Source: Nitrospira sp.
Lineage (GTDB): Bacteria; Nitrospirota; Nitrospiria; Nitrospirales; Nitrospiraceae
Length of the DNA: 64,000 bases
NCBI GenBank assembly: GCA_030123565.1
Contig: CP126122.1
Span: forward strand, 4,044,800 to 4,108,799
Reading direction: 5' to 3'
Under the pieces are notes generated by a model. The model did no database searches, was not told the origin of the DNA, and saw only the letters and a program-made list of their open reading frames with translations. The first letter of the stretch is position 1. Every line of letters starts with the position of its first letter. Below are positions 6,364 through 64,000 of the stretch, piece by piece. A program made the translations under genes and the position numbers.

Positions 6364-6443
6364 TGTATAGTTCTGAAGGTAACCAGGGCAAGCGAGACAA
6401 TCACTGATCGCTTTCTCGCAGGGTCCTATGCGATAAATCGGCT

Positions 6444-46977: not shown

Positions 46978-48547
46978 AGACGAACACCTTCCAATAGGAA
47001 ATACGATGGCCCCTCCCTCCATGATCGAGGCAGGTCTCACGAGACATCGATTGGCTGCCTGGTTGCGTCAGCATGAAGAGACCATCAGGCGGGTGGGCAT
47101 TCTAGCGATTCTCTACCTCATTCCTGCGATGTGGATCCTCCAGCCGGTCATCATCGATCCCGATATTTGGTGGCACCTAGAGACGGGAAAATGGATCGTG
47201 GAGCATGGCACAGTCCCGGCGACGGATCCCTTTTCAGCCTATGGTGAGGGCAAACCGTGGATTGCATACAGCTGGTTGTTCGAAATCGGAATATATAAGC
47301 TAGTGCAGGTGTGCGGAGAGGCAGGAATTCTCCTGTACACCCTGCTCGGAAGCTGGATGATCATGCTGGTGCTGCATTGGATCATTGGGACGCGCATCCA
47401 GAGCTTTATAGTGGTCTGCGGGTTAATGACCGTATCTGTGATCGCACTCTCGAAGCTGTTCACACCACGACCCTGGTTGTTGACGATTCTCTTCTTTGCC
47501 ATCACGCTAGAAGCCGTGTTGTCGCTTCGGGAAGGCAAGCAATCACGGATTGTCTGGTTCCTTCCGGCCGTATTTGTCGTATGGGCCAATATTCATATCC
47601 AATTCATCTATGGACTGGGTCTGCTTGGCCTCGCCTGTACCGCGCCAGCGATCGATCGGTTGGTCTATCGAGGCAGGCAGCATCAGCCGGCTATGGACTG
47701 GGGATCCAAGTCTTGGAGAAACCTCATTGGACTGACAGTATTCTGTATATTGAGCACGCTGCTGACACCGCACCACGTGAAGCTGTATGCGGTTGTTGCC
47801 GAACTGTCAGCCCAGACCGGTATGTGGGAGTACACGCAGGAGATGCAAGCTCCGGCTTTTCGTACGGCTGCCGACTGGGCGATGCTGGCGGTATTTTGTG
47901 TTGCCCTCATTCAGCTGGGGCGTCGGCTTTTGATTGTGTCATCGTTCGAGGTGTTGCTCCTGATAGCAGCGGCTGCTTCGGCCTTTCGTGGCCAGAGAGA
48001 TGTCTGGTTCCTGATCCTGGCATCGCTCGTGGTCCTGGTAACTGGGCAGCGGCGTGAAAGAATAGTGAGGTGGGCCATAGTGCCTCGCGGCGGACTTGCG
48101 CCTGTGTGTATCGCCGTTGCCATCGGATCGATCCTCATTCTGGGATATCGGGGAATCTCAGAAGCTGAGATTCAACACAACACTGAAAAGCTATATCCCA
48201 TCGCGGCAGCAGCGTTTGTCGAACGACAACAGTATGCCGGTCCGCTCTACAACCATTTCAACTGGGGCGGCTATCTCATCAGGCGGCTTCCGCATTTGAA
48301 AGTGTCAATGGATGGAAGGGCGAACGTTCATGGCGATGAACGGATCAAGCAGTCACTTGCGACCTGGGAAGGGGGCCCACATTGGAACAACGATCCTGAT
48401 CTCAACCAGGCGGCCCTTGTGATTGCGAGTCGGCACCATGCACTGACCTCAATCCTTCAGCTCGATCCGCGATTTCGGCTCACCTATCAAGACGACACTT
48501 CGTCGGTGTTTATCAGAGTAGCCTCCGCAGCTCACCACTCAAATTAG
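46970..48547 (+). CDS. Polytopic membrane protein, glycosyltransferase-like
   Basis: 525 aa; the start MHRDEHLPIGN overlaps the methyltransferase stop by 8 bases. About ten to eleven hydrophobic helices run from about 45 to 405. The first loop has DPDIWWHLETGKWIVEHG, with an acidic pair as in GT-C (lipid-linked sugar) enzymes, and DPFSAYGEGKPWIAYSWLFE. A soluble C-terminal region (about 420-525) carries SMDGRANVHGDERI. The pattern resembles a GT-C-type membrane transferase, but the family is not certain. Confidence 0.75.
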   Translation: MHRDEHLPIGNTMAPPSMIEAGLTRHRLAAWLRQHEETIRRVGILAILYLIPAMWILQPVIIDPDIWWHLETGKWIVEHGTVPATDPFSAYGEGKPWIAYSWLFEIGIYKLVQVCGEAGILLYTLLGSWMIMLVLHWIIGTRIQSFIVVCGLMTVSVIALSKLFTPRPWLLTILFFAITLEAVLSLREGKQSRIVWFLPAVFVVWANIHIQFIYGLGLLGLACTAPAIDRLVYRGRQHQPAMDWGSKSWRNLIGLTVFCILSTLLTPHHVKLYAVVAELSAQTGMWEYTQEMQAPAFRTAADWAMLAVFCVALIQLGRRLLIVSSFEVLLLIAAAASAFRGQRDVWFLILASLVVLVTGQRRERIVRWAIVPRGGLAPVCIAVAIGSILILGYRGISEAEIQHNTEKLYPIAAAAFVERQQYAGPLYNHFNWGGYLIRRLPHLKVSMDGRANVHGDERIKQSLATWEGGPHWNNDPDLNQAALVIASRHHALTSILQLDPRFRLTYQDDTSSVFIRVASAAHHSN

Positions 48548-48778: not shown

Positions 48779-48945
48779 CTAGGTCTGGCCATGCGAACCG
48801 CCTCTCAGGCAAAGCCGACCCGGGTGAAGGAGGTGAGGGAATTCCCGATGCGTACGGTGAAGGAACCTGAGAGGCAGAGACGCACCCTGTGCTGTAGAGG
48901 TCGCGTGTCATAACCAATTCAATGCCCAAAAGAAAGGTGAGGACC

Positions 48946-49122
48946 ATGTTGAATGCGATTCGTCGGTTCATGAAAGAAGAAGAGGGCGCAGTGGCTACGG
49001 AATATGTGTTGCTGCTCGTATTGATCGGCTTGGCGTTCTTTCTGGGCGCCAGGACGCTCGGGAACACAATAAGCAACATTTTCAATACGACTGCAACCAA
49101 CCTAAATACGGCTGCCAGCTAA
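48946..49122 (+). CDS. flp: Flp/type IVb pilin
   Basis: Major subunit of the Tad pilus. Start MLNAIRRFMKEEEG (58 aa) has GGTGAGGA upstream; the in-frame ATG at 48922 would add eight residues without a site. The prepilin cleavage site is G^AVATEYVLLL, with the E5 and Y6 typical of the Flp motif, then a hydrophobic stem and a short Thr/Asn-rich tail. Processing is expected by the TadV peptidase encoded downstream. Confidence 0.93.
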   Translation: MLNAIRRFMKEEEGAVATEYVLLLVLIGLAFFLGARTLGNTISNIFNTTATNLNTAAS

Positions 49123-49139
49123 GCAGACGCAATGGGCTC

Positions 49140-49171
49140 GGAGGGGGGATCATCTCATGGATCCCTCTTCC
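49140..49171 (+). terminator. Strong hairpin after the flp gene
   Basis: GGAGGGGGGATC (49140-49151) pairs with GATCCCTCTTCC (49160-49171) over 12 positions with two G-U pairs; loop of 8. There is no T run, so it may act as a partial terminator or as a 3' stabiliser that raises pilin mRNA relative to the rest of the operon. Confidence 0.55.
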
Positions 49172-49311
49172 GATACCCTCCGTTCTGAGGGAAGGCATCC
49201 TCTCCCTCGGAGGAATAGGCAGGAGAACGGTTCCATGAGACGCTTGTCTGAACAGGGCGAATAGGCGAAACCATTACCTAAAAGACTCTCGAGCGAGGAA
49301 GCAAGGGGCAC

Positions 49312-49833
49312 ATGGAGAACGGCATCATCTATCTTATCCTTTTTATCGCCTTGACCACCGCCGCTTTCACTGATCTGCGAGGAGGAAAGATTCCCAACTG
49401 GATCACGGTTCCCACCATGGCCACTGGCTTGGCTTTCCATGCAGCCATGAATGGCGTTAACGGATTGACCCACAGCGCGAAGGGTCTCGGGGTTGGATTT
49501 GTGCTCTTGATTCTATTCTATGCGGCGGGAGGGTTTGGTGCGGGAGACGTCAAGCTTGTCGCAGCAACCGGGAGTTTGCTCGGACCGGCTGACATTCTTT
49601 CGGCGGTCTGGACCGCGGTGATTATCGGAGGACTCTCAGCCGTAGGCCTTCTCATCATTCGCTTGGGGTGGGGAGGCATGGTCCAGTGGATCTGGTCCTG
49701 GTTGAAGACCTTGGTGCTGTTGGGCGGCAAGCCGCCTGTCCTTCCAAGCAGGGAGAACCGATTGGTATTGCGGTATGCCCCGATATTCGCCCTTGGAACA
49801 CTCATGTCGCTGGCTCTGCCCTACATTGAGTAG
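49312..49833 (+). CDS. tadV/cpaA: Prepilin peptidase (A24 family)
   Basis: Cleaves the Flp prepilin. Six-helix membrane protein (173 aa) with the two active-site aspartates in FTDLRGGKIPNW (about residue 21) and GAGDVKL (about residue 80). It lacks the N-terminal methylase domain, as usual for TadV. Confidence 0.92.
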   Translation: MENGIIYLILFIALTTAAFTDLRGGKIPNWITVPTMATGLAFHAAMNGVNGLTHSAKGLGVGFVLLILFYAAGGFGAGDVKLVAATGSLLGPADILSAVWTAVIIGGLSAVGLLIIRLGWGGMVQWIWSWLKTLVLLGGKPPVLPSRENRLVLRYAPIFALGTLMSLALPYIE

Positions 49834-49880
49834 TGGTAGTGCGTGCGACGGCGCCCTGATGTTTTGAAGAGGAGGAACTC

Positions 49881-50735
49881 ATGCAACGGTATCGGCCGAT
49901 GTTCTTTTTCGCGATTGCCTTTCTGCTGGCCACGGGAACGAGTGTGCTGGTGTTCTCCTGGCTCAAGCAGCAGGCGGCGAATTTTTCTCAGCCTGTCTTT
50001 GCGAGTGAACCGAAGATGGTTGCCGTGGCAGCAGCCGATATCGCCTGGGGAACCAAGTTGAATCCAGATATGGTCAAGCTCGTTCCCTACACGGAAGGCA
50101 CGGCTCCGGATGGGCACTTCAATTCGGTCGAGAGCCTTGCCGGGCGCGTGTTGCTGATGCCGGTCCGGCATCAAGAGCCCTTCATTGATTCAAAGTTGGC
50201 TCCGGTCGGGGGCGCTGGCGGTGTGGCGGGCATCTTGGATCCAGCCAAACGTGCCATGTCGGTGCGAGTCGACGATGTAATCGGCGTGGCCGGATTCATC
50301 AAGCCGTCCGACCGGGTTGATGTGATGGTCACCGTGGATGCGACAGGATCCAACAGCCACTCGGTCACCAAGATGATCTTGGAGCATATCAAGGTGTTGG
50401 CAGCCGGGACCGAAATGGTGCGCGGCGCCAAAGAGGAAGAGGCCAAACTGGTTCAAGTCGTGACGCTCGAGGTGGATGTGGTGGAGGCAGAGAAGCTGGC
50501 ACTCGCATCCAATCAGGGGAAGTTGCGGCTCGCATTACGGAATCCACTGAACACAGAACAGATCCTGACCCATGGTGCAACGATTGGAGGACTGCTCGCC
50601 TCCTATCGTCCGAAGGCACCTCCAAAGCCGGCTGCTGAGGAGGAATTCACGCGTGAGCAGGTAGAGGTCATCAAGGGGGGAACCATCCTCAAAGGCGGAG
50701 CTGGGCACAATAGAGACGCGAGATCAAAGTACTAA
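49881..50735 (+). CDS. cpaB/rcpC: Flp pilus assembly protein, periplasmic SAF-domain subunit
   Basis: N-terminal membrane anchor (about 8-28), SAF domain (about 45-110: VAVAAADIAWGTKLNPDMVK) and the RcpC-type region (AKRAMSVRVDDVIGVAGFIK, then PSDRVDVMVT). Works with the secretin CpaC in the outer part of the Tad machine. 284 aa; a charged C-terminal tail. Confidence 0.9.
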   Translation: MQRYRPMFFFAIAFLLATGTSVLVFSWLKQQAANFSQPVFASEPKMVAVAAADIAWGTKLNPDMVKLVPYTEGTAPDGHFNSVESLAGRVLLMPVRHQEPFIDSKLAPVGGAGGVAGILDPAKRAMSVRVDDVIGVAGFIKPSDRVDVMVTVDATGSNSHSVTKMILEHIKVLAAGTEMVRGAKEEEAKLVQVVTLEVDVVEAEKLALASNQGKLRLALRNPLNTEQILTHGATIGGLLASYRPKAPPKPAAEEEFTREQVEVIKGGTILKGGAGHNRDARSKY

Positions 50736-50758
50736 CAAACTGAAAATGGGGGGACACC

Positions 50759-51391
50759 ATGCAGGTCAAGAACCGAGCAAACCGAAAGGCACGGGTGATG
50801 GAAACGGGACGTATCGCCGTAATCGTGGGACTGGTCTTCATCGGACCGGTCGCAGCTGATGCAGGTCCGGACACGCTGACCTATACCGCGAAACATACCA
50901 ACGAGGTCCAGCAAATGAAAATCGCTGTCGGTAAAAGCGTGATCGTCGACGTGCCTGTCCCGATCAAGCGCGCCTCGCTCGCCAACCCCGATATCGCCGA
51001 TGCGATTGTGCTAAGCCCGAGACAGATTTATGTGACAGGCAAAGGGTTCGGGATGACCAATCTGACGTTGTGGGGAAAGGATGAGCAGGTCATGTCGGTC
51101 TTTGATGTGGAGGTCGGCATGGATGTAACGACTTTGAAAACCCGGTTGCACTCCCTGCTTCCCGATGAAGAGGGGATTCAAGTCCTGTCGACCAACGACC
51201 ATGTCACGCTGACCGGCACCGTCTCGAGTTCGAATCGGCTGACTCAGGCAGCGGCAGTGGCTGAAGCGTTTGCACCGAAGAAGGTCATCAACTTTTTGAA
51301 AGTGCATCCGGAGCTGCGCGAAGAGGTTCCCCCGTCCGTCGTGGTTGAAGTGATCAAGGGAACATCTGTGAGCCACGTCACGCCGAAGTAA
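50759..51391 (+). CDS. Secretin N-domain-only paralogue of CpaC
   Basis: Signal peptide (about 18-36) followed by the N-terminal pilus assembly domain found in CpaC/RcpA (VGKSVIVDVPVPIKRASLAN, IVLSPRQIYVTGKGFGMTNL, then LHSLLPDEEGIQV and a BON-like segment). It ends at 210 aa, before the secretin pore domain. The next gene is the full CpaC with the same N-terminal sequence pattern, so the two probably arose by tandem duplication with loss of the pore. It might cap or line the secretin, or bind CpaB. A GGGGGGACACC ribosome site precedes the ATG. Confidence 0.85.
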   Translation: MQVKNRANRKARVMETGRIAVIVGLVFIGPVAADAGPDTLTYTAKHTNEVQQMKIAVGKSVIVDVPVPIKRASLANPDIADAIVLSPRQIYVTGKGFGMTNLTLWGKDEQVMSVFDVEVGMDVTTLKTRLHSLLPDEEGIQVLSTNDHVTLTGTVSSSNRLTQAAAVAEAFAPKKVINFLKVHPELREEVPPSVVVEVIKGTSVSHVTPK

Positions 51392-51417
51392 CGAATCGAA
51401 CGAGGGGAGGAACACCT

Positions 51418-52896
51418 GTGAATATTATGGCGAAGATCGGCGACACCCGGTGGATGGTTGCCATTCTTGTTGCGGGGTCAGTGATGGTCAGCGGTATGCA
51501 GGCACGAGTGGCGTTAGCCGAGGGCATTGCGCCCGTAACGATAGGAAGCAGCCAGGTGCAACGACTCGAGCTGACGGTCGGGAAGTCGAAGGTTCTTGAG
51601 GTGCCTGTGCCTCTCAAGCGGGCATCCCTGGCTAATCCTGACATCGCGGATACCGTCATTCTCTCCCCGACCCAGATCTATGTAACCGGGAAGACGGTCG
51701 GTGTCACCAATCTGACGTTGTGGCAGGATGCCGACAAGATCTCCTCCATCATTGACGTGGTCATCATGCCGGACCTGAGCAGGATCAAGGAGGATCTCCA
51801 CCTCCTGTTCCCCAATGAGCGCGGTATCGCGGTTGCGGCGACACACGATCGTTTGACGCTTTCGGGAGTCGTTTCCAATGCCGCTGCGCTTCCGAAGGTG
51901 CTGGATATGGCCGAATCCTATGCCCCGAAACGAGTGGTGAACATGCTCGGGGTTGGTGGCGTGCAGCAGGTCATGTTGGAAGTCCGGGTCGCGGAAATGG
52001 ACCGAGAGTTGATCAGACGGCTCGGCATTAATCTGGCCGCAGTTGCCTCCAATGCCTTTGGGGTGACTGCGTTGAACAATTTGACGTCGCTGATTGGGCC
52101 GGGAGTTGTCTCAAGCGCGCCGACACTTGGCCAAGACGTTACGTCGACGATCAACTCGGTGGCCAATTTTAATACCGGCAGCATCTCATGGACCGGATAT
52201 ATCGATGCCTTGAAGCAGCAGAATGTGGTCAAGGTCTTGGCCAAACCGACCTTGGTAGCGATCAACGGCCAGGAGGCGGCCTTCCTCGCCGGCGGCGAAT
52301 TCCCGATTCCGGTCCCCCAGGCGTTCGGCGTCGTGACAATTCAGTTTAAGAAGTTCGGCGTTGGTCTCACCTTTACGCCGAATGTGCTGGCCAATGACCA
52401 CATTGGCATTAGCGTTGCGCCGGAAGTGTCGGAACTGGACTTCACCAATGCTCTGAGGCTGCAGGGATTCACCATTCCAGCGATCACGACCAGAAGGGCT
52501 TCGACCGTCATCGAATTGGCCGACGGTCAAAGCTTCGCGATCGGTGGCTTGCTCCGTGACAACCTTCGTGAGAGCGTGAGTAAGTTCCCTGTGTTGGGAG
52601 AGATTCCCATCCTCGGGGCGCTGTTCCGGAGTTCTTCGTTTCAAAAGAATGAGACCGAGTTGCTTATTATCGTGACACCGCATCTCGTGAAGCCCATGGA
52701 TGTGGCCACGCAAAGCCTGCCCACCGACTATTACGTGGAGCCGAACGATTTCGAATTCTACCTGCTTGGGCTGGCCGAGAAAGGTGGGTTCGGCGGCAGC
52801 AGGGATCTGCGCAGCCCCGTGACCGATGTCGAAAAACCACGGACCTTGGGATCAGTCAAACGATTCGACGGTGGGTTCGGTCATATCGTGCCCTAA
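51418..52896 (+). CDS. cpaC/rcpA: Tad outer-membrane secretin
   Basis: Forms the outer-membrane channel of the Flp pilus. GTG start after ggggaggaacacct. Signal peptide, N-terminal pilus-assembly domain (about 40-110: LEVPVPLKRASLANPDIADT), BON-like domain (about 115-170), then the secretin domain (about 175-430: QVMLEVRVAEMDRELIRRLG, then VKVLAKPTLVAINGQEAAFL and GGEFP, ending FAIGGLL...LGEIPILGALFRS). 492 aa. Confidence 0.93.
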   Translation: MNIMAKIGDTRWMVAILVAGSVMVSGMQARVALAEGIAPVTIGSSQVQRLELTVGKSKVLEVPVPLKRASLANPDIADTVILSPTQIYVTGKTVGVTNLTLWQDADKISSIIDVVIMPDLSRIKEDLHLLFPNERGIAVAATHDRLTLSGVVSNAAALPKVLDMAESYAPKRVVNMLGVGGVQQVMLEVRVAEMDRELIRRLGINLAAVASNAFGVTALNNLTSLIGPGVVSSAPTLGQDVTSTINSVANFNTGSISWTGYIDALKQQNVVKVLAKPTLVAINGQEAAFLAGGEFPIPVPQAFGVVTIQFKKFGVGLTFTPNVLANDHIGISVAPEVSELDFTNALRLQGFTIPAITTRRASTVIELADGQSFAIGGLLRDNLRESVSKFPVLGEIPILGALFRSSSFQKNETELLIIVTPHLVKPMDVATQSLPTDYYVEPNDFEFYLLGLAEKGGFGGSRDLRSPVTDVEKPRTLGSVKRFDGGFGHIVP

Positions 52897-52937
52897 TGAA
52901 ACTCAGATTAGGTGCTGTCCGAAAGGGAGGGTGTCCA

Positions 52938-53213
52938 ATGCAGAGCATGAAGATGAGTCTGGTGGTTCTTGTGGGGACGTTGGCTGTAACGGGCTGTGCG
53001 CCGACTCAACTCGGCGAAAATTATGGCGCGTCCTATTACACGATGCTGGAGAGTCAGATTCTTGATCCGACGGCGGGCCGGACTCAGGACCCAGTGATCG
53101 GGCTTGATGGAAAGGCCGCTATGATTTCGATTGAACAGTACCGGAAGACCTTTGAGCAGCGCGATGCTGGTTTTAATCGATCGCTGGTCACGACCGGGGT
53201 CAAGACCAACTAA
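52938..53213 (+). CDS. Small lipoprotein in the Tad locus
   Basis: Signal with lipobox AVTGC at 20 (MQSMKMSLVVLVGTLAVTGC), then about 70 residues. The start at 52938 has a strong AAAGGGAGGG site; an ATG at 52896 overlapping the cpaC stop is less likely. Position between the secretin and tadE suggests a CpaD-like or pilotin role, but the sequence does not show the CpaD family (inference). Confidence 0.75.
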   Translation: MQSMKMSLVVLVGTLAVTGCAPTQLGENYGASYYTMLESQILDPTAGRTQDPVIGLDGKAAMISIEQYRKTFEQRDAGFNRSLVTTGVKTN

Positions 53214-53233
53214 TTGCGTGGAGTGATGAACAC

Positions 53234-53647
53234 ATGTCGAAAACCAGACAGAGCGAGAAAGGCAGTGTCGCAGTCGAATTTGCGATCCTCCTTCCCTTGT
53301 TCATCATGTTCGTGTGGGGGGCCATTGAGTTTGGGATGGCCTACTACACGCAGGAAGTCCTCACAAACGCGAGTAGGGAAGGGGCTCGAGCTGGAATTGT
53401 GCAAGTCTCGCCGAAGCTGACGCCAACGCAAATTCAGACGATTGTTACAGATTATGTCAGGAACGCCGGGGTTCCCGTCGCCAGCCTGAATACTCCGGTG
53501 GTCACAGGAGCGGGCGGCTTGTTTCCAACCCCGCTTACGGTGACAACGACCTATAACTACACCTTCCGGATCGTCTCAATGATCACGGCCGGAGCGGTTC
53601 CGTCTTCCATCACACTCACCGCCACGAGCGTTATGAGGAACGAATGA
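53234..53647 (+). CDS. tadE: TadE-family pseudopilin
   Basis: 137 aa. The N-terminal stem after a short leader (KGSVAVEFAILLPLFIMFVW) is the TadE signature with the conserved Glu; cleavage by the prepilin peptidase is expected before SVAVE. GAIEFGMAYYTQEVLTNASR follows. The stop overlaps the tadG-like start (ATGA). Confidence 0.92.
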   Translation: MSKTRQSEKGSVAVEFAILLPLFIMFVWGAIEFGMAYYTQEVLTNASREGARAGIVQVSPKLTPTQIQTIVTDYVRNAGVPVASLNTPVVTGAGGLFPTPLTVTTTYNYTFRIVSMITAGAVPSSITLTATSVMRNE

Positions 53648-54717
53648 ACACGCATGCGCCACAGATCATCCAACCTTTGAAGAATGAACGGGGTGTCTAT
53701 GCGCCCATGGTCGCCGGTGCCTTGTTGATGTTCCTTGGCATTCTTGGGCTGACGATCGATATCGGCCAGGCCCTGGTGGCGAAGAACGAATTGCACAACA
53801 CCGCGGATGCGGCGGCCCTTGCCGGAACCAGGTACTTGGCCACGCTGTATCAAGCCTTGCCGGCATCGGCGCAATCGACCTTTCAATTGAGTACAACCGA
53901 TGAGACTGCCATCAAAAATCGTGCCGTTGCAGTGGGGACTGAGAACACGACGCGAGGGACGGCAGTGCAGATTCTTCCTGCCGACGTGCAGATAGGACGA
54001 TGGAGCAACACGAACAGAACGTTTACCCCAGGATTGACCACCCCGAATGCGGTTCGCGTGTTGACGAAACGAGATCCTTCGGTTGGAGCAGGCGGGATTT
54101 CGACCTTCATCGCCCGTGTGTTCAATGTCACATCCATCAACGTCAGTGCTTTCGCCACGGCGGCGCTGACGGGGCCGGCCGTCACGCCTCCGGGTGACTT
54201 GGACACGCCGTTTGGAATTTCCTCGTTCCGGTTTTCGACACCCTACTGCAACCAACCTGTTACGTTCTATCCCTCAAACGATCCGACATCCTGTGCGGGG
54301 TGGCATACGTATTTTACCAACCCGCCGAATGCAAACACCTTGCGAAATATTATCGACACGCAACTCATTCCCAATCCCCCTACCAGCCCAGGGACCGGGG
54401 TCGGCAATACGTTGGAATTCATCGGAGGGAATGTCGCCAGCGCGCTTCCCAACCTCTACAACTTGTATCTTTCCAAACGTGATCCTGCCACCGGCATCTG
54501 GACGGCATTAGTACCGGTCTATCAGGCTAGCGATTGTTCTAATCCCAACTCCCCTCTTCCAATAGTCGGTTATGCCACGATGAACATCACGACCGTCATC
54601 GTTCCTCCGGCCGGTCAGTTGGTGCAGGGGACGGTTGCCTGCAACGTGGTTGGGGGAACGACCGGCGGCGGCGGAGATTTTGGAACGCTCTCATCGCTTC
54701 CTGGGCTTGTGCAATAG
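53644..54717 (+). CDS. tadG: TadG-like pilus protein
   Basis: N-terminal helix near 20-42 (APMVAGALLMFLGILGLTI) and the TadG/TadE-N pattern (IDIGQALVAKNELHNTADAA, then ALAGTRYL). The remaining 300 residues are a beta-rich, Ser/Thr/Pro-rich extracytoplasmic domain with a few cysteines, without a von Willebrand domain. 357 aa, shorter than TadG of Proteobacteria. Confidence 0.83.
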   Translation: MNTHAPQIIQPLKNERGVYAPMVAGALLMFLGILGLTIDIGQALVAKNELHNTADAAALAGTRYLATLYQALPASAQSTFQLSTTDETAIKNRAVAVGTENTTRGTAVQILPADVQIGRWSNTNRTFTPGLTTPNAVRVLTKRDPSVGAGGISTFIARVFNVTSINVSAFATAALTGPAVTPPGDLDTPFGISSFRFSTPYCNQPVTFYPSNDPTSCAGWHTYFTNPPNANTLRNIIDTQLIPNPPTSPGTGVGNTLEFIGGNVASALPNLYNLYLSKRDPATGIWTALVPVYQASDCSNPNSPLPIVGYATMNITTVIVPPAGQLVQGTVACNVVGGTTGGGGDFGTLSSLPGLVQ

Positions 54718-54741
54718 CCTGCTCAGAAAGGAGAAGTCTGA

Positions 54742-55968
54742 ATGGCGAATTTCATGACCGTGTCCATCGAGTGCCAGACTGAGGAGGTGCGCGTCGCATT
54801 CAAGGCGGCGATGGCCTGCCATCGCGAGTTCGTGCCGAAACCAACTCGCATCTCCGGCACGCCCGACATGTTGGTGCTTGAACTCGATGAGCACAATCCC
54901 ACCAGGACGTTGAACGAAGTGCGCACCATGGTCGAGACGGCTCCGCGAACGGAAATCGTCCTGACCTCCAAGCGAACCGATCCCCAAATCATGTTGGAAG
55001 TGATGCGCATGGGGGTCAAGGAATTCTTGCCGCAGCCGCTTCAAATCAAAGAGGTCGAGGAGGCGTTGATTCGATTCAAGACGCGTTTCGCATCGCTGAA
55101 TCAAAGCTCAGAAGCCAATCTCGGAGCGGTGATCTCAGTGATGGGAGGCAAGGCCGGGATGGGGACGAGTACGGTGGCGCTGAATCTAGCGATGGCTCTG
55201 CAACAGAACGGCAAAGCTACCAGGCATGCCGTGTTGGTTGACCTGAATCTCTCCGGTAACGATCTCCCGCTCTATCTTGATGTGGCGACGCAGCGTGGTT
55301 GGCACGATGTCTCGCAGGACATTTCCCGGCTCGATCCCGCCATGCTTCAAGGTGTTCTGGTGAAACACGACTCCGGGCTCCATCTTCTTGCGTCGGGCGG
55401 GGAGGGGTTGGAGGAAGTGCTCGCGCCGGGCTGTGTGCTCTATACCGTGGATCTGCTCCGCTCCATGTTCGACTATGTCGTGATCGATTGCGGATCCCGG
55501 GTGATGCCAGCCGTGGAGGAGGGCCTTGAGCTGTCCAATCATGTGTATGTCGTGACGTGCCTGTCGGTTCCCTCGATTCGACACACGAAACACCTGATAC
55601 AGGTGCTCCAAGAGCGAGTGGGACTCAGCACGCCGATCGACATCGTGGTCAATCGGTATCGGGCTCGCGACGCGGAACTGTTGAAACAAGCAGAAGGTCT
55701 TTTGCATATGAAAGCCTCATGGCTGCTCCCAAATGACTATGGCACCGTGAGTCAATCGCTGGATGGAGGGACTCCTCTTCTTCAGCTTTTCCCTCGGTCG
55801 GAGGTGACGCAGAGTTACGTGAAGCGCGCGGCAGATCTGATTAAGGACTGGAACCATAGAAAGAAAGGGGTTCATTCTTCAGTCCAACCGGAAAAGAACG
55901 AGTCGTTACTGGGGCGATTCTGGTCCGGTGTGTCGAGCAGTGCGCGAGTCAAGACTGGGCTTGCATGA
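54742..55968 (+). CDS. tadZ/cpaE: Tad pilus polar-localisation ATPase
   Basis: MinD/ParA-like ATPase that positions the Tad machine. N-terminal receiver-like domain (about 1-120) followed by a MinD fold (about 128-375). The Walker A at 135-144 reads GGKAGMGTST; the usual phosphate-loop lysine (GKST or GKTT) is Thr, although an earlier Lys is present, so nucleotide use may be atypical. 408 aa. Confidence 0.9.
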   Translation: MANFMTVSIECQTEEVRVAFKAAMACHREFVPKPTRISGTPDMLVLELDEHNPTRTLNEVRTMVETAPRTEIVLTSKRTDPQIMLEVMRMGVKEFLPQPLQIKEVEEALIRFKTRFASLNQSSEANLGAVISVMGGKAGMGTSTVALNLAMALQQNGKATRHAVLVDLNLSGNDLPLYLDVATQRGWHDVSQDISRLDPAMLQGVLVKHDSGLHLLASGGEGLEEVLAPGCVLYTVDLLRSMFDYVVIDCGSRVMPAVEEGLELSNHVYVVTCLSVPSIRHTKHLIQVLQERVGLSTPIDIVVNRYRARDAELLKQAEGLLHMKASWLLPNDYGTVSQSLDGGTPLLQLFPRSEVTQSYVKRAADLIKDWNHRKKGVHSSVQPEKNESLLGRFWSGVSSSARVKTGLA

Positions 55969-56005
55969 GAGATCGTCCTTCATTCCTAACCTCCAACGAG
56001 GAATT

Positions 56006-57325
56006 ATGGCTATGCTGACTGCGAAAGTGCCGGTGAGAGGAGAGCAGCGGAACTCGTTTCAGGATCTCAAGGCCCGGGTGCATCAACGGGTGGTGGAACT
56101 GCTCGATATGAACGCAGTGAGTATGATGGAGGAGGCGGTTCTGCATGGCGAGTTGAGCAAACTGATCGAGCAACTGCTCCAGCAGGATTCCATCCCGCTC
56201 AATCTGAGCGAACGCACGAGGCTGACCAAGGAGATCATGCACGAGGTGCTCGGGTTGGGACCGATTGAACCCCTCCTGGCCGATGCGACCGTAGCAGATA
56301 TACTCGTGAACGGGCCGCACAAAGTCTATGTGGAGCGGTTCGGCGTGCTCGAGCCTACCGACGTACGGTTTCGGGACGAAGCGCATCTTCGGAAAATTAT
56401 CGATCGCATCGTGTCGCGAGTGGGGCGCCGGATCGACGATTCTGTTCCGATGGTCGACGCCAGGCTCAGCGACGGTTCCCGCGTGAATGCCATCGTCCCA
56501 CCGTTGGCGTTGGACGGCGCCACGCTGTCGATCAGAAAATTCAGCAAGGATCCGTTGCTCCTCGATGCTTTGATCGAACGGCGGTCGGTGACGCCGGAAA
56601 TCGGGGCGATTCTGAAAGCCATTGTGCAGGGGCGTCTGAACATTTTGATTTCCGGCGGAACCGGTACAGGCAAAACCACCTTCTTGAACATGCTCTCCAG
56701 TTTCATTCCTCCCAAGGAACGGATCATCACGATCGAAGATGCGGCAGAACTTCAGTTGAAGCAAGATCATGTTGTGCGACTTGAGACTAGGCCGGCCAAC
56801 ATCGAAGGAAAAGGTCAAATTACGCAGCGCGATCTGGTGAAGAACGCGCTGCGTATGAGACCGGACCGGATCATCGTGGGTGAGGTGCGCGGAGCCGAAG
56901 CGATCGACATGTTGCAGGCGATGAACACGGGGCACGACGGTTCCTTGACGACGATCCATGCCAATTCCTCCCGCGACGCATTGACCAGGCTGGAAACCAT
57001 GGTGGCGATGGAAGGACTGAATCTCCCGACAAAGGCGGTTCGTCACTACATTTCATCGGCCCTCGACGTCATCATTCATCTCAGTCGCCTCTCCGACGGT
57101 TCGAGAAAAATGACCAGTATTCAGGAAGTTTCCGGCATGGAGGGAGACGTCATTACCCTTCAGGAAATCTTCCAGTTCGAGCAATCCGGATTGGATGAGC
57201 AGGGAAAAGTGCAAGGGAAGTTTCGGGCTACAGGTATCAGGCCGAAGTTTCTCGACCGCTGCAAGGCAGCGGGGGTGAATGTTCCACTGGACGTGTTCGA
57301 TCCTCGGAGGGTCTACCAATGTTAG
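56006..57325 (+). CDS. tadA/cpaF: Tad pilus assembly ATPase (type II/IV secretion family)
   Basis: Motor ATPase. Start [12 protein letters not shown] (56006) has GAGGAA upstream; a longer frame from 55928 overlaps tadZ. Walker [10 protein letters not shown] at about 217-225, Walker B/Asp box [12 protein letters not shown] near 245 and [10 protein letters not shown] near 296, plus HANSS and His box motifs. 439 aa. Overlaps tadB by 7 bases. Confidence 0.95.
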
Positions 57326-58305
57326 GGTTGATCGCCTTCGGTATCTTCCTGACAGTGATCTTGGGGTTGCATGGCTGTTACTACCTGTACCGCCTGCTCA
57401 CGACACGAAGAGAATCGGCGCGTCGGATCAAGGAACGGTTGGGGACTTGGTCCGAGCCCAACCAGCCCGTTTCGGGACGACTGGTTCGCAAGCATGTGTT
57501 AAGCGACGTGAGCTGGATCAATACCTGGCTTCAGGAAACGGCATGGATTAAGAAGTATCTCAAGCTCGATTATCTGCAGCGGTTGCACCAGCAGTCGGGA
57601 ACATCCCAGCCCTTGGCTCGTTATCTGTTAGGTTCCGCCACCCTTGCGATGGGAGGGCTTGTTCTTGGGACCAACCTTCGTCTCGGGGTTCTGATGAGCA
57701 TGATCTGGGCCCTGTTGCTGGGGGTATTCCCTTTCCTCATGCTCTACCGCATGAAGGCCAATCGTATCATCGCTTTTCAGCGGCTGATGCCGGAAGCGTT
57801 GGAATTGATCGCGCGGGCGCTCAAGGCCGGCCATGCCTTTTTCGTGGGCGTGAAGATTGCCGGAGAGGAATTGGCTGATCCAATCGGAGGAGAGTTTCGG
57901 CGTGTCTACGATGATATTTCCGTCGGCCTGGCCGTGCCCGAAGCGATGGAGCGTCTCCATGAGCGCGTCGAATGTCCGGACGTCAAGTATTTTGTGACTG
58001 CCGTGACAGTCCAGCGGGAGACAGGTGGGAACCTGGCAGAAATTATGGAAAGTCTCGGGATGACCATTCGAAAGCGTTTTGAATTTCATGCGAAAGTGAA
58101 GGCGCTCTCCGCGGAAGGCGTGCTCTCGGCGATCATTGTCTTTGTCATGCCGTTTGTCATGGGATTATTCCAATACACGATGAATCCGGAGTACATGTCT
58201 CTGTTGTGGATAGACCCTATGGGGCGCTCGATGGCGTCTATTGCTGCGGTCATGATGGTGGTCGGTGCGATAGTCACGCGTCGCCTGATTGACGTCAAGG
58301 TTTGA
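57319..58305 (+). CDS. tadB: Tad inner-membrane platform protein
   Basis: T2SSF-domain membrane protein with helices near 5-25, 100-140 and 260-325. The T2SSF core (LMPEALELIARALKAGHAFF, RETGGNLAEIMESLGMTIRK) is clear. Partner of TadC. 328 aa. Confidence 0.92.
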   Translation: MLGLIAFGIFLTVILGLHGCYYLYRLLTTRRESARRIKERLGTWSEPNQPVSGRLVRKHVLSDVSWINTWLQETAWIKKYLKLDYLQRLHQQSGTSQPLARYLLGSATLAMGGLVLGTNLRLGVLMSMIWALLLGVFPFLMLYRMKANRIIAFQRLMPEALELIARALKAGHAFFVGVKIAGEELADPIGGEFRRVYDDISVGLAVPEAMERLHERVECPDVKYFVTAVTVQRETGGNLAEIMESLGMTIRKRFEFHAKVKALSAEGVLSAIIVFVMPFVMGLFQYTMNPEYMSLLWIDPMGRSMASIAAVMMVVGAIVTRRLIDVKV

Positions 58306-58317
58306 AGGGGAACGAAC

Positions 58318-59280
58318 ATGGCATTGATCTGGACAATCAGTTCGGCCGTATTCCTGATGACCATGCTGATCAGCCTTGGTCTCTATGCGCATTTGGCATC
58401 ACGCGAGGAGGTTCGGACCTGGTCCCGCCGGTTGAGTCCGAGTGGCCAAGCTGCACCGGAGGCTGGGGCGCTCGCGATGACGTTCTCGTTCTGGATGTCC
58501 AAACTCTCCGAGCTGTTGGTCAAATTAGGAGCTGCCACCAGGCCGAAGGATGAGCAAGAAGTGGCCTCGATCAGACGGTCGCTGATTATGGCAGGGTATC
58601 GTAGCGAACATGCTCCATTGGTCTTCATTGGAGTGAAATTGTTCCTCGCTATCGGAGGCATCGCACTCCTCTCTATTGTTCCTCTGGTCTGGTGGGGGTT
58701 TCCGTCTGATCAGACGTTGCTCATGTATTACGTCGGTGCGGCCTGTCTCGGATATCTGCTGCCCACCTTGTGGCTCAAGTTAGCTGTACGGTCCCGTCAG
58801 GATAACATTCAAAAGGCCGTACCAGACGCCTTGGACCTTCTCGTGACTTGTGTCGAAGCGGGCCTGGGCTTGGATATTGCTATTGCCCGTGTGAGCAGTG
58901 ACATTAGCCAGACTCATCCTGCCTTAGGTGAGGAATTGACCATTCTGTCGTTGGAACTGCGAACCGGATTGGCTCGTGAGGAAGCGTTGCGTCGGCTGGC
59001 TGTGCGGACCGGGCTTGAGGACGTGAAAACCCTGGTGGCGGTGCTCATTCAGACCGATCGATTTGGAACCAGCGTGGCGCAGGCGCTCCGTGTCCATGCA
59101 GATGCGATGCGGGTGAAACGTCAGCTTCGAGCCGAGGCGCTAGCCGCCAAGCTGCCGGTCAAAATGCTTTTTCCTTTGATTTTTTTCATCCTCCCGAGTC
59201 TATTCGTAGTTATGCTGGGGCCCGGCGTTATCAGGATCATCCAGGTTCTTGTCCCAATAACAAAGGCGGCAGGCCAGTAA
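58318..59280 (+). CDS. tadC: Tad inner-membrane platform protein
   Basis: Second T2SSF protein with a helix at about 3-23, paired helices near 95-150 and a final pair near 275-310. Core segment ALDLLVTCVEAGLGLDIAIA and LVAVLIQTDRFGTSVAQALR. 320 aa; last gene of the Tad run. Confidence 0.92.
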   Translation: MALIWTISSAVFLMTMLISLGLYAHLASREEVRTWSRRLSPSGQAAPEAGALAMTFSFWMSKLSELLVKLGAATRPKDEQEVASIRRSLIMAGYRSEHAPLVFIGVKLFLAIGGIALLSIVPLVWWGFPSDQTLLMYYVGAACLGYLLPTLWLKLAVRSRQDNIQKAVPDALDLLVTCVEAGLGLDIAIARVSSDISQTHPALGEELTILSLELRTGLAREEALRRLAVRTGLEDVKTLVAVLIQTDRFGTSVAQALRVHADAMRVKRQLRAEALAAKLPVKMLFPLIFFILPSLFVVMLGPGVIRIIQVLVPITKAAGQ

Positions 59281-59383
59281 CTCAATATCTGCGGGAGCAG
59301 AGCGACGGGCTTATGGTGCCTGCCGGTCGTGGTATGAGATTTGAGACGAGATATGACTGGAGAATCTTCTTTTGTGATACCAA

Positions 59384-60319
59384 ATGACTATTGAGCCTCC
59401 TACTCTCTCCTCATTCTCTCCTGCCGTAACCGGATTGGAGACCCGTGCCCTATCTGACGGGGGTTTTTCCGCCCTTCCCAATGGAACCTACCGAACCGAC
59501 GCCACAGCTTGGGCAGCCCTTGTGCTGGAAGCGATGGGCTCGACCCAGGCTTACCAGGCGGCTGCTCAACGCCTATGCAAGGATCAGATGCCGGATGGGC
59601 GTGTGCCCATTGACCATGGCCATCCTGAGGTGTGGTGGCCGACGGCGCTGGCTGTTGTGGCTTGGGCCGGCGTGGAACAGTTTCGTCTTGAGAAGGATCG
59701 GGCCGTGCAGTTTCTCTTGCGAGTGTCGGGGGCTAATCCTGCGAAGCAACCAGGTGATCCTGTTGGGCATGATACGACATTACGAGGATGGTCGTGGATC
59801 GAGGGCACCCATTCCTGGGTCGAGCCGACCAGTCTCGGCCTCCAGGCCCTCGCCGCTGTCGGTATTCAGGATCACCCTCGAGTTCAAGAAAGTATGCGGC
59901 TGTTGCTGAATCGCCAACTGCCTCACGGAGGGTGGAACTACGGGAATACCACCATCTTCGGTCGGGAGTTGCATCCGATGCCGGAGAGCACAGGAGCCGC
60001 CTTGGCGGGATTGGCTGGAAGGGTTTCTCGGGATGAGATAGTTCGGAGCCTTCTGTATCTGGAGGGAGAAATCGGTCGGCTTCGTACGCCTCTCTCCTTG
60101 GGCTGGGGTTTGCTTGGTCTTGCCGCATGGGAACGCTGGCCATCAAGTGGAGAGGCTCTCGTGGCCGATTGCTTGGCTGCCCGATCGCGTTACGGTGACT
60201 ACGATACGTCCGCGCTCTGTCTGTTGATGTTGTCGGCTGTTCAGCGAGGTGTGGCGGCGAAGATCGTTTCATCTCCAGAGGTATCCGGGAATCCAGAGTC
60301 GGCTGTTCGTACTCAGTGA
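59384..60319 (+). CDS. Alpha-toroid protein related to terpene cyclase/prenyltransferase repeats
   Basis: 311 aa, soluble, with repeated helix pairs of the (alpha/alpha) toroid type: DATAWAALVLEAMGSTQAYQ, LAVVAWAGVEQF, SLGLQALAAVGI, STGAALAGLAGR, SLGWGLLGLAAW, DTSALCLLMLSAV. QLPHGGWNYG resembles a QW-like repeat motif. The DxDD catalytic signature of squalene-hopene cyclases is absent, so an enzymatic cyclase role is doubtful. It overlaps the DUF362 gene by about 4 bases, so the two are one unit. Confidence 0.8.
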   Translation: MTIEPPTLSSFSPAVTGLETRALSDGGFSALPNGTYRTDATAWAALVLEAMGSTQAYQAAAQRLCKDQMPDGRVPIDHGHPEVWWPTALAVVAWAGVEQFRLEKDRAVQFLLRVSGANPAKQPGDPVGHDTTLRGWSWIEGTHSWVEPTSLGLQALAAVGIQDHPRVQESMRLLLNRQLPHGGWNYGNTTIFGRELHPMPESTGAALAGLAGRVSRDEIVRSLLYLEGEIGRLRTPLSLGWGLLGLAAWERWPSSGEALVADCLAARSRYGDYDTSALCLLMLSAVQRGVAAKIVSSPEVSGNPESAVRTQ

Positions 60320-61350
60320 GAATGGTCATGTCGATCCAGGGCGATCACCAGAACGTCAGAGGCATCACACGTCGTCACTTGCTCATGGCGGGGGCTGCGG
60401 GCATTCTCCTCGGATCGGGAGTGCTCCTGCCAGAACGGTTCTTTCGCCAGCGCCAGCAGGCCCAGACATTCGTCGCCAAGGTTGCGCACTACCAATTAGA
60501 AATCGGAGATACTATTGCCAGGGGGATCAGGGAGTTGAGGGTCTCTATCGATGAACTGAGGGGCAAACGTATCCTACTGAAGCCGAATCTGGTTGAAACA
60601 AGCTCGGGGGCCCCTCATATCAACACGCATCCTCTGGTCCTGCGCGGTACGGTCGAAGCGTTTCTTCGTCTGGGCGCTGCGACGGTGATGGTGGCGGAAG
60701 GTCCTGGTCATCGTCGCGATACACTTGCCGTCTATGAAGAGTCAGGCCTCGCCGATGTGTTGACGGAAGATCGTATTCCGTTTCAGGACCTCAACTACAT
60801 CACCGGCTATGACGCACCCAATCTTGGGCGGCAATCTTCTTTGCGAACCTTGACGTTCCCCGCCCTCTTCAAGGAAGTCGATTGGATTGTATCTGTTGCG
60901 AAGATGAAGACACACCATTGGGCCGGAGCCACTCTTTCAATGAAGAATCTATTCGGGGTAATGCCCGGCATTTACTATGGGTGGCCGAAGAACGTCCTGC
61001 ACCATGCAGGGATCGAGAACTCGATCTTGGATATTAACGCAACCCTAAAGCCCCATTTTGCCATTGTCGATGGCATTGTCGGGATGCAGGGCGATGGTCC
61101 GATCATGGGAGATCCCAAGCAGGCCGGGGTTTTGGTCATGGGCCGGAATCTTGCCGCCGTCGATGCGACCTGTTGCAGGATCATGGGCATCGATCCCTAC
61201 AAAGTGTCTTATTTGGAGAGGGCCGACAATTGGCTGGGGCCGATCAGCGATGGATCAATCGAACAGCGCGGTGAATCGATTACCTCAGTGCGAACGAACT
61301 TCCACCTGATTGACACGATTCCGGCGCAACAGGGCATACGTCTCGCCTGA
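60316..61350 (+). CDS. DUF362-family protein with Tat-type signal
   Basis: 344 aa. The N terminus carries a twin-arginine-like signal (GITRRHLLMAGAAGILLGSG). The DUF362 domain follows (KRILLKPNLVETSSGAPHIN, VSVAKMKTHHWAGATLSMKN, VDGIVGMQGDGPIMG, AAVDATCCRIMGIDP). No CxxCxxC ferredoxin extension is present. GTG at 60316 or ATG at 60322/60328 may start it. Function unknown; translationally coupled to the toroid protein, which suggests a cofactor-bearing exported complex (inference). Confidence 0.83.
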   Translation: MRMVMSIQGDHQNVRGITRRHLLMAGAAGILLGSGVLLPERFFRQRQQAQTFVAKVAHYQLEIGDTIARGIRELRVSIDELRGKRILLKPNLVETSSGAPHINTHPLVLRGTVEAFLRLGAATVMVAEGPGHRRDTLAVYEESGLADVLTEDRIPFQDLNYITGYDAPNLGRQSSLRTLTFPALFKEVDWIVSVAKMKTHHWAGATLSMKNLFGVMPGIYYGWPKNVLHHAGIENSILDINATLKPHFAIVDGIVGMQGDGPIMGDPKQAGVLVMGRNLAAVDATCCRIMGIDPYKVSYLERADNWLGPISDGSIEQRGESITSVRTNFHLIDTIPAQQGIRLA

Positions 61351-61361
61351 AGAGGTGCTGG

Positions 61362-61691
61362 ATGAAAGGGGCCGCTCTATTGTTTTTCCTGATTTGCCCG
61401 GCCTTCGTCTGTCTAGCCGAGACCGAACTACCAACGAGCCAGGTCCAGGAGCCGAATCTCTACGACCATTATGTGGCTCTGCAGCAGATGCAGGGGGCGC
61501 TGCTCCAACGCTCTCAGGAAGACCAGGCTCGCCTTCAACCGCAGATGCAGCGGGCTGAACGCGAAGCCTGTCAACGACTTAGGGAGGAGCGTGAAGCGCA
61601 GGTATCGAGAGATGAGTATCGGCGTCAGGGCGGAGATCAATTCTTCGCGTTCGTCCAGCAATTCGAACAGTATTGTCAGATGCTCCATTGA
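61362..61691 (+). CDS. Small exported coiled-coil protein
   Basis: 109 aa with signal peptide (about 1-18, MKGAALLFFLICPAFVCL). The mature part is helical and charged (QEDQARLQPQMQRAEREACQ, RLREEREAQVSRDEYRRQGG) with two Cys. It follows the DUF362 gene across about 11 bases with a GAGGTG site. No family recognised. Confidence 0.72.
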   Translation: MKGAALLFFLICPAFVCLAETELPTSQVQEPNLYDHYVALQQMQGALLQRSQEDQARLQPQMQRAEREACQRLREEREAQVSRDEYRRQGGDQFFAFVQQFEQYCQMLH

Positions 61692-62104
61692 AAAGTCCTG
61701 CACCGATCACTAGACAACAGCATCGTCGCACGGCAGTGTCCGGTTATTAGTCGGCCACATCCGTCGAATGGCCTGACCTTCCCTCTGAGATTCACGCCTC
61801 GATCTCAGCCCGCTCCAGTGTAAATGTCCCTTGGAGATTCGTCTCCTATCTCACCCCCACGCAGTGGATCCCCTTGCTACTTTTAAACAGTCCTGAGAGC
61901 CAAGCTGTTCTCTCCCTGGCCAAGGGGAAGTTCTAGTGGATTATGATGGTGATAGGGAGCAAGATTGATTGGGAAAGAGAAGGTGAGTCTTTCGGTGCAT
62001 TCCCGGATCGTGACGGCTGATTCTGGTCTGTAAAGGCAGAGGTGGTTATTGGTTTTACAACTTCGCCGTGAATGCACCTCACGGAACGCGAAGGAATGAT
62101 AAAC
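61692..62104. other. Intergenic region after the DUF362 run
   Basis: About 410 bases without a convincing gene. No repeat or promoter consensus stood out. Confidence 0.5.
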
Positions 62105-62671
62105 ATGTCTGGTAACGAAAAGCAGAGAATGCATCGAGGTGGACGGGCGCGCCAGGTGATCCTGCTTGCCTTGATCTGGGGAGCACTGGTCTCACCTATG
62201 GCTGGCGAGAGGGAGTCGCTGGCACGATCGCGCGATCTCGTGGCTACACCGCCCCTCATGGGGTCTCCACTGCAGGTTATAGAGAGTCAGATGAGGTCGG
62301 GTGAGATTCAACGATTCGAGAGCCGGATGTTGGATTCACCGCTCCAGCTTATTGGCAGTCCCTTTGGGCCGTTTCGGTTTGCTACCCTGCCCAATTTCCA
62401 GGATCTCTGGGCGACCCGTCAATCCATTTCGATGCTTCCTGCCATGCTGCAGACCCCTCGCGGGATACTGCTGCTGCTCCCCTATTACGTCCTGCCCCTT
62501 GCACAGGAGTACCTCGCAGGCCAATCTGAGACGGTGGCGGAAGATCTTCCTGCCTCGCAGCCGCAATCTGTCGCACAGCCGAAATTTTTCAGCGCCCGCT
62601 GCGGAACATTCATGGAGATTCTGGTACCTCCGAATGGACATCTGTCCGACGAAGAAAATAAACCATGTTAG
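62105..62671 (+). CDS. Exported protein, unknown function
   Basis: 188 aa from MSGNEKQRM, chosen because aagga lies about 9 bases upstream; in-frame Met codons at 62072 and 62096 are possible. Signal at about 16-38 (VILLALIWGALVSPMAG). Then repeats of a short motif (PPLMGSPLQVIESQM and MLDSPLQLIGSPFG), a hydrophobic patch (MLQTPRGILLLLPYYVLPLA) and a C-terminal region with two Cys. Not recognised. Confidence 0.65.
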   Translation: MSGNEKQRMHRGGRARQVILLALIWGALVSPMAGERESLARSRDLVATPPLMGSPLQVIESQMRSGEIQRFESRMLDSPLQLIGSPFGPFRFATLPNFQDLWATRQSISMLPAMLQTPRGILLLLPYYVLPLAQEYLAGQSETVAEDLPASQPQSVAQPKFFSARCGTFMEILVPPNGHLSDEENKPC

Positions 62672-62995
62672 GGGTTCCGATTTTGTGTCTGAACTCGTCA
62701 GGAACAACCAGAAGCGACAGAATCAATCCAATCTCCTGATCCTCGATATTCCCGGAGTCCGGCCTGGCAGGATGAAGCCACGGTTGATGTTCCGCGTTCG
62801 TTCAACATACCGGGGAGCCTGTTGAACATCGTCGCACCGTTCGACCAGTCCGGGTCCGCCACCTCCGGCTGCGTGGGCAACAGGCTGTTGTCTGGCGGAC
62901 CGGGCCTGATGCTCTGGATCCGGCCGAAACCACCCTGTTTCAATAGATCCCGGACAAGCTCCAAGGCCGAAACAGATTGCCAGGGCCGACGTCGG
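62672..62995. other. Convergent gap without a gene
   Basis: 324 bases between two converging genes. A minus-strand frame (62698-63030) overlaps the transglutaminase stop and has no ribosome site, so it is not annotated. Confidence 0.45.
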
Positions 62996-64000
62996 TTACC
63001 GGTTCTGCGGGGGGTGAGCCGATCGTTCAAGACTGCGGATGGTACGAAGCAGGCCTTCTGCCATGGCGAGATCTTCCGCGGTCAACGGAGTTTGGCCGAA
63101 CCGGACTTGACTATAGAGATGAGTCAGAGCGTCGATGGAGGGCCAGGCCTCAGACCATTGCTCGCGAACATGGTGGAGAAATTCACGCGGTGTGGCGCTT
63201 GCCGGTTTCACGATTCCTTGCTGAGCGCAGCAATCGATCATATGTGAGTAGAGGGTGACGGCGACCTGCTGATTCGCCGAATAGCCATCCTGCCGATCTG
63301 CCGCCTTCCCTGACCGTCGCAGCATCAGTCTGACCACATAACCCGCGCCGACTGCCATGATGAGGATGAGAAGGATGACGACGGTCTGTGGAAGGCCGGT
63401 TGGCGCCAGGGCCGTTCTGAATCGATTAAAGGAGGTTGCCACCTGTCCCAGCAAGGCGGTCAGGGACTCGGACATTCTTGCCCGCACCGCCCCTCCCCCT
63501 TCCCGAATGCCCTGTACGACTGCGAGTTGATCGTTCGCATTGTAGTGCACGAAGAATCGATCCCATTTGAGCCGGGCTGAATCCATGACACTGTTCGCTG
63601 ATTGCCACCAGGTTGGCGCGGTCGCCTCGGGGACGGGAGGAGTGGGGTCCATCGTGATCCATCCCGATTGCGGGAAATAGACCTCCACCCATGCATGGGC
63701 ATCCCGTTGCCGAACGGTGTAGTAGTTCCCGAAGGCATTCCATTCGGTCGCAAGAAAACCCGTCACCAACCTTGCGGGAATCCCCACTGTACGGAGCAGG
63801 ACCACCATCGCGGTAGCGTAATGTTCGCAATAACCGGTCTTTCTGGTCAGGAGAAAGTCTTCCAAGGGATGGGCGGATTGCAGGGACGGTACTTCCAGGC
63901 TGTATCGATAGTTGGTCAGCAGATGTGTCCGTATCAGGTTCACGGCCTGTGCAAGGCTGGTGGCCGGTTGGGTCACCCTACGCGCCAGGTCGACGATCTG
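62996..64000 (-). CDS. Transglutaminase-like protein (TgpA type), C-terminal part; runs off the window
   Basis: The frame is open to the window edge at 64000 (an apparent start at 63976 is only a GTG inside the gene: residues QIVDLARRVTQPATSL precede it). Transglutaminase core: catalytic Cys in RKTGYCEHYATAMVVL, His in RDAHAWVEVYFP and Asp in WITMDPTPP. A membrane helix follows near residues 195-215 from 63976, then a DUF4129-like soluble tail (QEGIVKPASATPREFL-type). The N-terminal membrane domain lies outside the window. Confidence 0.85.
   Translation of the reverse strand, partial: QIVDLARRVTQPATSLAQAVNLIRTHLLTNYRYSLEVPSLQSAHPLEDFLLTRKTGYCEHYATAMVVLLRTVGIPARLVTGFLATEWNAFGNYYTVRQRDAHAWVEVYFPQSGWITMDPTPPVPEATAPTWWQSANSVMDSARLKWDRFFVHYNANDQLAVVQGIREGGGAVRARMSESLTALLGQVATSFNRFRTALAPTGLPQTVVILLILIMAVGAGYVVRLMLRRSGKAADRQDGYSANQQVAVTLYSHMIDCCAQQGIVKPASATPREFLHHVREQWSEAWPSIDALTHLYSQVRFGQTPLTAEDLAMAEGLLRTIRSLERSAHPPQNR

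Follow-up and report, generated by a model that had tools for sequence, protein, structure and literature searches.

A conserved toroid-DUF362 gene pair associated with Tad pilus loci, with a predicted LarA-like fold in its exported member

The 64,000-nucleotide stretch analysed here (the window; Nitrospira sp. contig CP126122.1, positions 4,044,800 to 4,108,799) belongs to a Nitrospira-like genome of 4.6 Mb in one contig and carries a Tad/Flp pilus locus. Directly 3' of TadC (58318-59280), where an earlier note on this DNA had correctly placed them, four consecutive open reading frames (ORFs) follow on the + strand, encoding an alpha-toroid protein, a DUF362 protein and proteins of 109 and 199 amino acids (aa). 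The note had read all four as an exported cluster, possibly an undescribed envelope system. The locus thus raises the question of which of these genes belong together, whether they are tied to the pilus, and what their products may do. Herein, it was found that the toroid and DUF362 genes form a conserved module associated with Tad loci. The best overall explanation, with a probability of roughly 45%, is that they constitute a translationally coupled Tad accessory pair whose exported member would be a LarA-type cofactor enzyme acting on a pilus-linked glycan.

Conservation of the pair and its association with Tad loci

The module consists of the toroid gene (59384-60319, + strand, 311 aa) and the DUF362 gene (60316-61350, + strand, 344 aa). 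In a survey of 84,980 species, the 80 best DUF362 relatives were taken as loci (L and G numbers below label surveyed loci and genomes), spread over Nitrospirota, Desulfobacterota-type bacteria, Planctomycetota, Myxococcota, Acidobacteriota and others. In 77 of the 80 loci the gene immediately upstream of DUF362 encodes a toroid, a recurrence that excludes chance pairing; two of the three loci with no toroid match (L069, L095 and L106) begin at or near a contig end. Conservation in other genomes, on which the earlier note had made its reading depend, was therefore borne out by the neighbourhood survey, together with a tie to Tad genes. In addition, the protein distances of toroid and DUF362 co-vary (r = 0.59, 0/2000 permutations), and the DUF362 proteins of the pairs form a supported tree branch (99/97) separate from four other DUF362 proteins. 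Within the genus, the DUF362 gene is present in 3 of 29 genomes including the window's own, the other two at 79-82% identity, and the order TadC, toroid, DUF362 and coiled-coil gene is identical in all three. A plasmid search yielded just two weak DUF362 matches, and no published description of the pair was found, the retrieved DUF362 papers not treating it.

The overlap of the two genes that the note had described depends on the start codon chosen. With the GTG at 60316 the overlap is 4 bases, and with an ATG at 60322 or 60328 it gives way to a short gap; roughly a dozen further loci share an identical 4-base overlap. The grouping of four genes did not hold. The gene for the small secreted coiled-coil protein (61362-61691, + strand, 109 aa) was restricted to Nitrospira-like loci in the locus comparison, and the exported 199-aa protein (62072-62671, + strand; ORF list, Pfam scan and locus comparison) has a clear match in one related genome, split over two ORFs, and a marginal one in another. 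Because of these distributions the conserved unit comprises two genes, and the 199-aa protein, rejected as a member for its poor conservation, probably stands outside it. In L035 (11465-12253) its gene seems to be split over two overlapping ORFs, a hint of decay or frameshift.

Tad linkage was defined as Tad genes within 10 kb of the pair. All 14 loci of the Nitrospira-like group have such genes, as do 33 of the 46 decidable loci among the 66 outside it, 24 with at least two Tad components and 9 with one. Two arrangements recur: the pair closes the tad operon in the window and in L060, L063, L070, L075 and L080, or is divergent beside Flp pilin and TadV in L068, L073, L081, L096, L100 and L103; other Tad-linked pairs lie elsewhere near Tad genes. 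A pair beside Tad is also present in the cultured, non-pathogenic Singulisphaera acidiphila DSM 18658 (L109). Tad-linked members are scattered over the DUF362 tree, from Planctomycetota to Nitrospirota. Furthermore, the Tad marker CpaB is present in 36 of 44 pair genomes, and among deltaproteobacterial pair genomes in 21 of 26 versus 31 of 148 in a background sample of the phylum (p = 7e-9, with an approximate grouping). By linkage as well as by co-occurrence across phyla, the toroid-DUF362 pair is a conserved Tad-associated module and a candidate Tad pilus accessory. To our knowledge, neither protein is counted among the Tad components, and no paper was found that connects Tad loci with squalene-cyclase-like proteins or with toroid or DUF362 genes.

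The DUF362 protein and its likeness to LarA

The DUF362 protein matches PF04015 at 4.4e-47 (161.2 bits, gathering cut-off 24). Its N-terminal part contains the twin-arginine motif TRRHLLM within the signal region TRRHLLMAGAAGILLG (60367-60414, + strand), and 73 of the 74 DUF362 relatives that have an N-terminus combine an RR motif with a hydrophobic stretch. The Tat-like signal seen in the single sequence thus proved to be a family trait, and the protein is very probably exported by the twin-arginine translocation (Tat) pathway. Most genus genomes encode a further DUF362 protein (356 aa; L002:1303-2373) that has a twin arginine as well as the K and H motif; in L002 its gene stands between a rhodanese-like and an OmpH/Skp-like gene.

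An AlphaFold2 model built with 53 sequences reached a predicted local distance difference test (pLDDT) score of 87.4. When it was compared with the PDB by Foldseek and VIA-align, the only strong matches were LarA-family enzymes (Z 14.3-17.4 over 210-223 residues), and the next group fell below Z 6. The best match was malate racemase 6d6z (VIA-align Z 17.4, root-mean-square deviation 2.9, 213 residues), and Foldseek gave E 2.9e-06 to LarA of Isosphaera pallida. On this modelling evidence, the protein almost certainly adopts the LarA fold. The likeness emerged from fold comparison alone: sequence profiles of DUF362 searched against the PDB returned no relatives, and the LarA family models PF09861 and NF033504 did not match the protein, which besides PF04015 gave only weak hits to NF052623. 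DUF362 and DUF2088 are placed in one Pfam clan, CL0471 (PMC11770544). The DUF362 protein, whose family the note had described as having no assigned reaction, is accordingly not without fold relatives, but a predicted relative of LarA from the same clan. It shares with the LarA superfamily (DUF2088, PF09861), which comprises nickel-pincer nucleotide (NPN) racemases and epimerases, the predicted fold, the clan and counterparts of the cofactor lysine and both catalytic histidines, with H229 as a putative counterpart, by spacing, of the nickel-ligand histidine. It differs in belonging to PF04015, in its Tat signal and in its toroid partner and Tad neighbourhood.

Twelve residues are invariant among the pair-type DUF362 proteins (K89, N91, E128, D135, K196, K198, H201, K210, N211, H229, D252 and D283), with K210 and H229 present in 53 of 53 and K210 also in 28 of 28 diverse DUF362 proteins. 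H132 and H200 are near-invariant at 52 of 53 each, the lone exception to both being L084. This Geobacter pair is a natural variant whose DUF362 protein lacks H132 and H200 and keeps K210 and H229. The putative cofactor site, KMKTHHWAGATLSMKNLFGVMPG...NVLHH (60902-61005, + strand), was delimited by hhalign and family-wide conservation. A broadened DUF362 profile aligned with the LarA profile at E = 1e-4, and since THHWAGATLSMK sits on SHLFAGFSGGRK-type LarA sequence without a gap, H200 would correspond to LarA H174 and K210 to LarA K184. With a narrower profile, H132 fell at or next to LarA H108. H229 lies 11 residues past PG, the spacing of LarA H200, and is matched by this spacing, as hhalign does not place it cleanly. 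We take K184 to be the NPN lysine and H200 the nickel ligand of LarA, numbers that agree with the LarA-numbered row of the alignment. In LarA, H108 and H174 are catalytic, a lysine links the cofactor and a histidine serves as ligand (PMC12611868). H132 is absent from other DUF362 types in an alignment of diverse members, so that LarA-like chemistry with two histidines would set the toroid-linked branch apart.

The cofactor could be supplied in the window's own genome, where larB adjoins larC (L189:4032-4808 and 5536-6744; G000:C1 about 4300031-4302743), and LarC is present in 42 of 44 pair genomes. Across Nitrospirota, LarC occurs in 335 of 395 genomes and LarA in 34 (29 over the cut-off); this combination of a near-universal LarC with a rare LarA is an orphan-cofactor pattern. 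About 15% of genomes have been reported to contain larB, larE and larC without larA (PMC11796402). DUF362 was found in 236 of 335 LarC-positive versus 12 of 60 LarC-negative Nitrospirota, counts from which relatedness has not been removed. No LarA was found in viral contigs. Co-occurrence with LarC was set aside as proof of NPN, LarC being too common without the pair; it permits the NPN model and does not prove it. The presence of an NPN-type cofactor in the DUF362 protein is, in our view, tentative and somewhat below an even chance. The earlier suggestion of a folded, cofactor-containing export product is therefore supported by the LarA fold prediction and by the conservation of the lysine, the histidines and the Tat signal, the cofactor itself being inferred.

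The toroid protein and the neighbouring genes

The toroid was found to resemble cyclases in several comparisons. Squalene/oxidosqualene cyclase models match it weakly in two scans (7.5e-05 in one, under the Pfam cut-off in the other), and a profile search favoured cyclases, with E 2e-12 to 1gsz. The structure predicted for it is a complete (alpha/alpha)6 barrel (pLDDT 91.5) whose fold matches include squalene-hopene cyclase (Z 25.8) and terpene cyclases (Z about 20-24), in line with the alpha-toroid identity first proposed. It also resembles the sugar enzymes AprG, MmpH and cellobiose 2-epimerase (Z about 20-22) and GH76. The absence of the DxDD motif, reported before for this one protein, extends to all 52 toroid orthologues. 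None of the 52 has a hydrophobic N-terminus or signal sequence, which places the toroid most probably in the cytosol, and the description of the genes as an exported cluster fails on this point.

The residues G72, W136, W145, T149, R177, G183, W184 and N185 are invariant, and H129, D130 and H143 nearly so; this conservation suggests that W136, W145, R177, W184 and N185, together with H129, D130 and H143, form a binding pocket. The conserved columns contain no cysteine, such as the zinc site of a protein prenyltransferase beta subunit would require, and three toroids are cysteine-free. With these catalytic motifs absent, the toroid was rejected as a prenyltransferase or terpene cyclase. It shares the (alpha/alpha)6 barrel and a QW-like GGWNYGN motif with squalene-hopene cyclase and other class II terpene cyclases, but is one short soluble domain that lacks the DxDD acid and partners a Tat protein.

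Upstream of the pair, the Tad operon ends with TadB and TadC (T2SSF in Pfam; 57319-59280, + strand), and the remaining Tad locus extends over 48922-57325 on the same strand. It comprises a recognisable Flp pilin (48922-49122), TadV (49312-49833), CpaB (49881-50735), a pilus/secretin N-domain protein (50759-51391), RcpA (51418-52896), a TadE-like protein (53234-53647), TadG (53644-54717), TadZ (54742-55968) and TadA (55928-57325). The identities of TadB, TadC, RcpA, TadG, CpaB and TadV are backed by Pfam. Directly upstream of Flp pilin lie lipid-linked sugar genes (45035-48547, + strand) for an AglJ/dolichyl-P-hexose-type GT2, a methyltransferase and a GT-C-like membrane protein, which are possible pilin glycosylation genes; the last of these proteins carries a DPDIWWH motif. 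In L054, L065 and L066, very close relatives of the GT2 (E 1e-128 or better) separate Flp from the pair and are adjoined by STT3-like membrane proteins of one cluster, a match to STT3 being shown for L054 and L066. Proteins of the GT-C type are again encoded beside the pair in L056, L058, L062, L088 and L093. The surface-sugar operon that the note had set next to the cluster thus exists, upstream of the Tad locus, while the immediate downstream neighbour, on the - strand, is an operon for a TgpA-type transglutaminase, DUF58 and MoxR (window 62996-64000; L188:1796-6178). Its genes were rejected as part of the system for their opposite strand. A scan of 58900-63100 for sigma-70-type promoters gave no match and is uninformative.

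Proposed function and its alternatives

In the preferred explanation, the toroid and DUF362 genes are one conserved, translationally coupled unit accessory to Tad/Flp pilus loci, a point that rests on genome comparison. The toroid would remain in the cytosol as an (alpha/alpha)6 barrel from which the terpene-cyclase acid has been lost, its fold being predicted and the absence of the motif observed, and may act as enzyme partner or maturation helper. The DUF362 protein would probably receive NPN or a comparable cofactor while still in the cytoplasm and, given its strong signal, be exported folded via Tat. In the periplasm it may catalyse a LarA-type hydride-transfer isomerisation or redox reaction on a 2-hydroxy-acid or sugar-acid group of a putative glycan that belongs to the Tad pilus or lies next to it. 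A pilus-associated glycan as the target is unlikely if taken by itself. Less likely again is the full proposal that DUF362 proteins are the non-LarA clients of NPN whose existence others have deduced from genomes with larB, larC and larE but without larA, and that the toroid-linked branch is the first extracytoplasmic NPN enzyme, with a glycan or hydroxy-acid group of Tad pili as the substrate that it isomerises.

Several findings weigh against this explanation. The remaining 13 of the 46 decidable loci show no Tad gene despite long flanks, so the module can function with no Tad locus nearby. A scan of 103 neighbours of the pair revealed no dominant family, with GT2 at 4 of 103 and glycan genes in the minority; a general glycosylation neighbourhood was rejected for this reason, which leaves the connection with glycans as a lead. 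The DUF362 protein lacks most of the C-terminal substrate domain of LarA, the aligned range ending near residue 297 in the best match, and the nickel-ligand correspondence of H229 rests on spacing. LarC is also frequent in genomes without the pair (92 of 119 Planctomycetota, 77%, and 335 of 395 Nitrospirota, 85%, pair-free genomes included), and many Nitrospira-family genomes (for instance G037, G063 and G070) have LarC and neither LarA nor DUF362. LarC therefore does not point to the DUF362 protein, and a further user of the cofactor may exist.

An alternative that accommodates part of these findings is a DUF362 protein of LarA fold that does without NPN and binds another ligand or metal, as a structural or sensory partner of the pilus in the periplasm. 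The missing substrate domain and the 12 DUF362-containing genomes among 60 LarC-negative Nitrospirota speak for it, but K210, H229 and the acid/base histidines are kept in 52-53 of 53 proteins, which a structural role would not need; we consider it rather doubtful. Strict gene order, frequent 4-base overlaps and a cytosolic toroid beside a Tat substrate would also fit a toroid that is a maturation chaperone holding the DUF362 protein during cofactor insertion, with only the latter acting outside the cytoplasm. TorA/TorD and NarG/NarJ likewise combine a cytosolic helical protein with a neighbouring cofactor protein of folded (here predicted) export. However, the toroid fold is different and resembles enzymes rather than TorD, and enzyme-like polar and aromatic residues are retained (invariant W136, W145, R177 and N185; near-invariant H129, D130 and H143), so that the chaperone role is a proposal of low probability. 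Equally improbable is that both proteins are enzymes of one envelope-glycan pathway, such as consecutive cytosolic and periplasmic sugar steps, which often, though not of necessity, serves Tad pili: sugar enzymes among the fold relatives of the toroid and GT2, PMT, YfhO and STT3-like neighbours in several loci suggest this, but the toroid's sequence-profile matches are isoprenoid cyclases, and glycan genes are far outweighed by the Tad association. An accident of gene order, with no functional link between the pair and Tad, is strongly disfavoured, since some pairs do lie far from Tad genes but two linkage arrangements recur across phyla with strong genome co-occurrence.

The envelope system that the note had imagined is thus narrowed to two genes, one with a cytoplasmic product, while conservation, the tie to Tad loci and the lack of any published description found in the literature stand. 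With the predicted fold and the cofactor-holding residues of LarA, DUF362 becomes a suspect user of NPN in genomes that lack LarA. If the exported branch carries NPN, a nickel enzyme for redox isomerisation would operate in the periplasm and be connected, across phyla, with the biology of pili. Should the cofactor prove absent, work on these pili still gains a conserved accessory pair of Tad loci for which no description was found.

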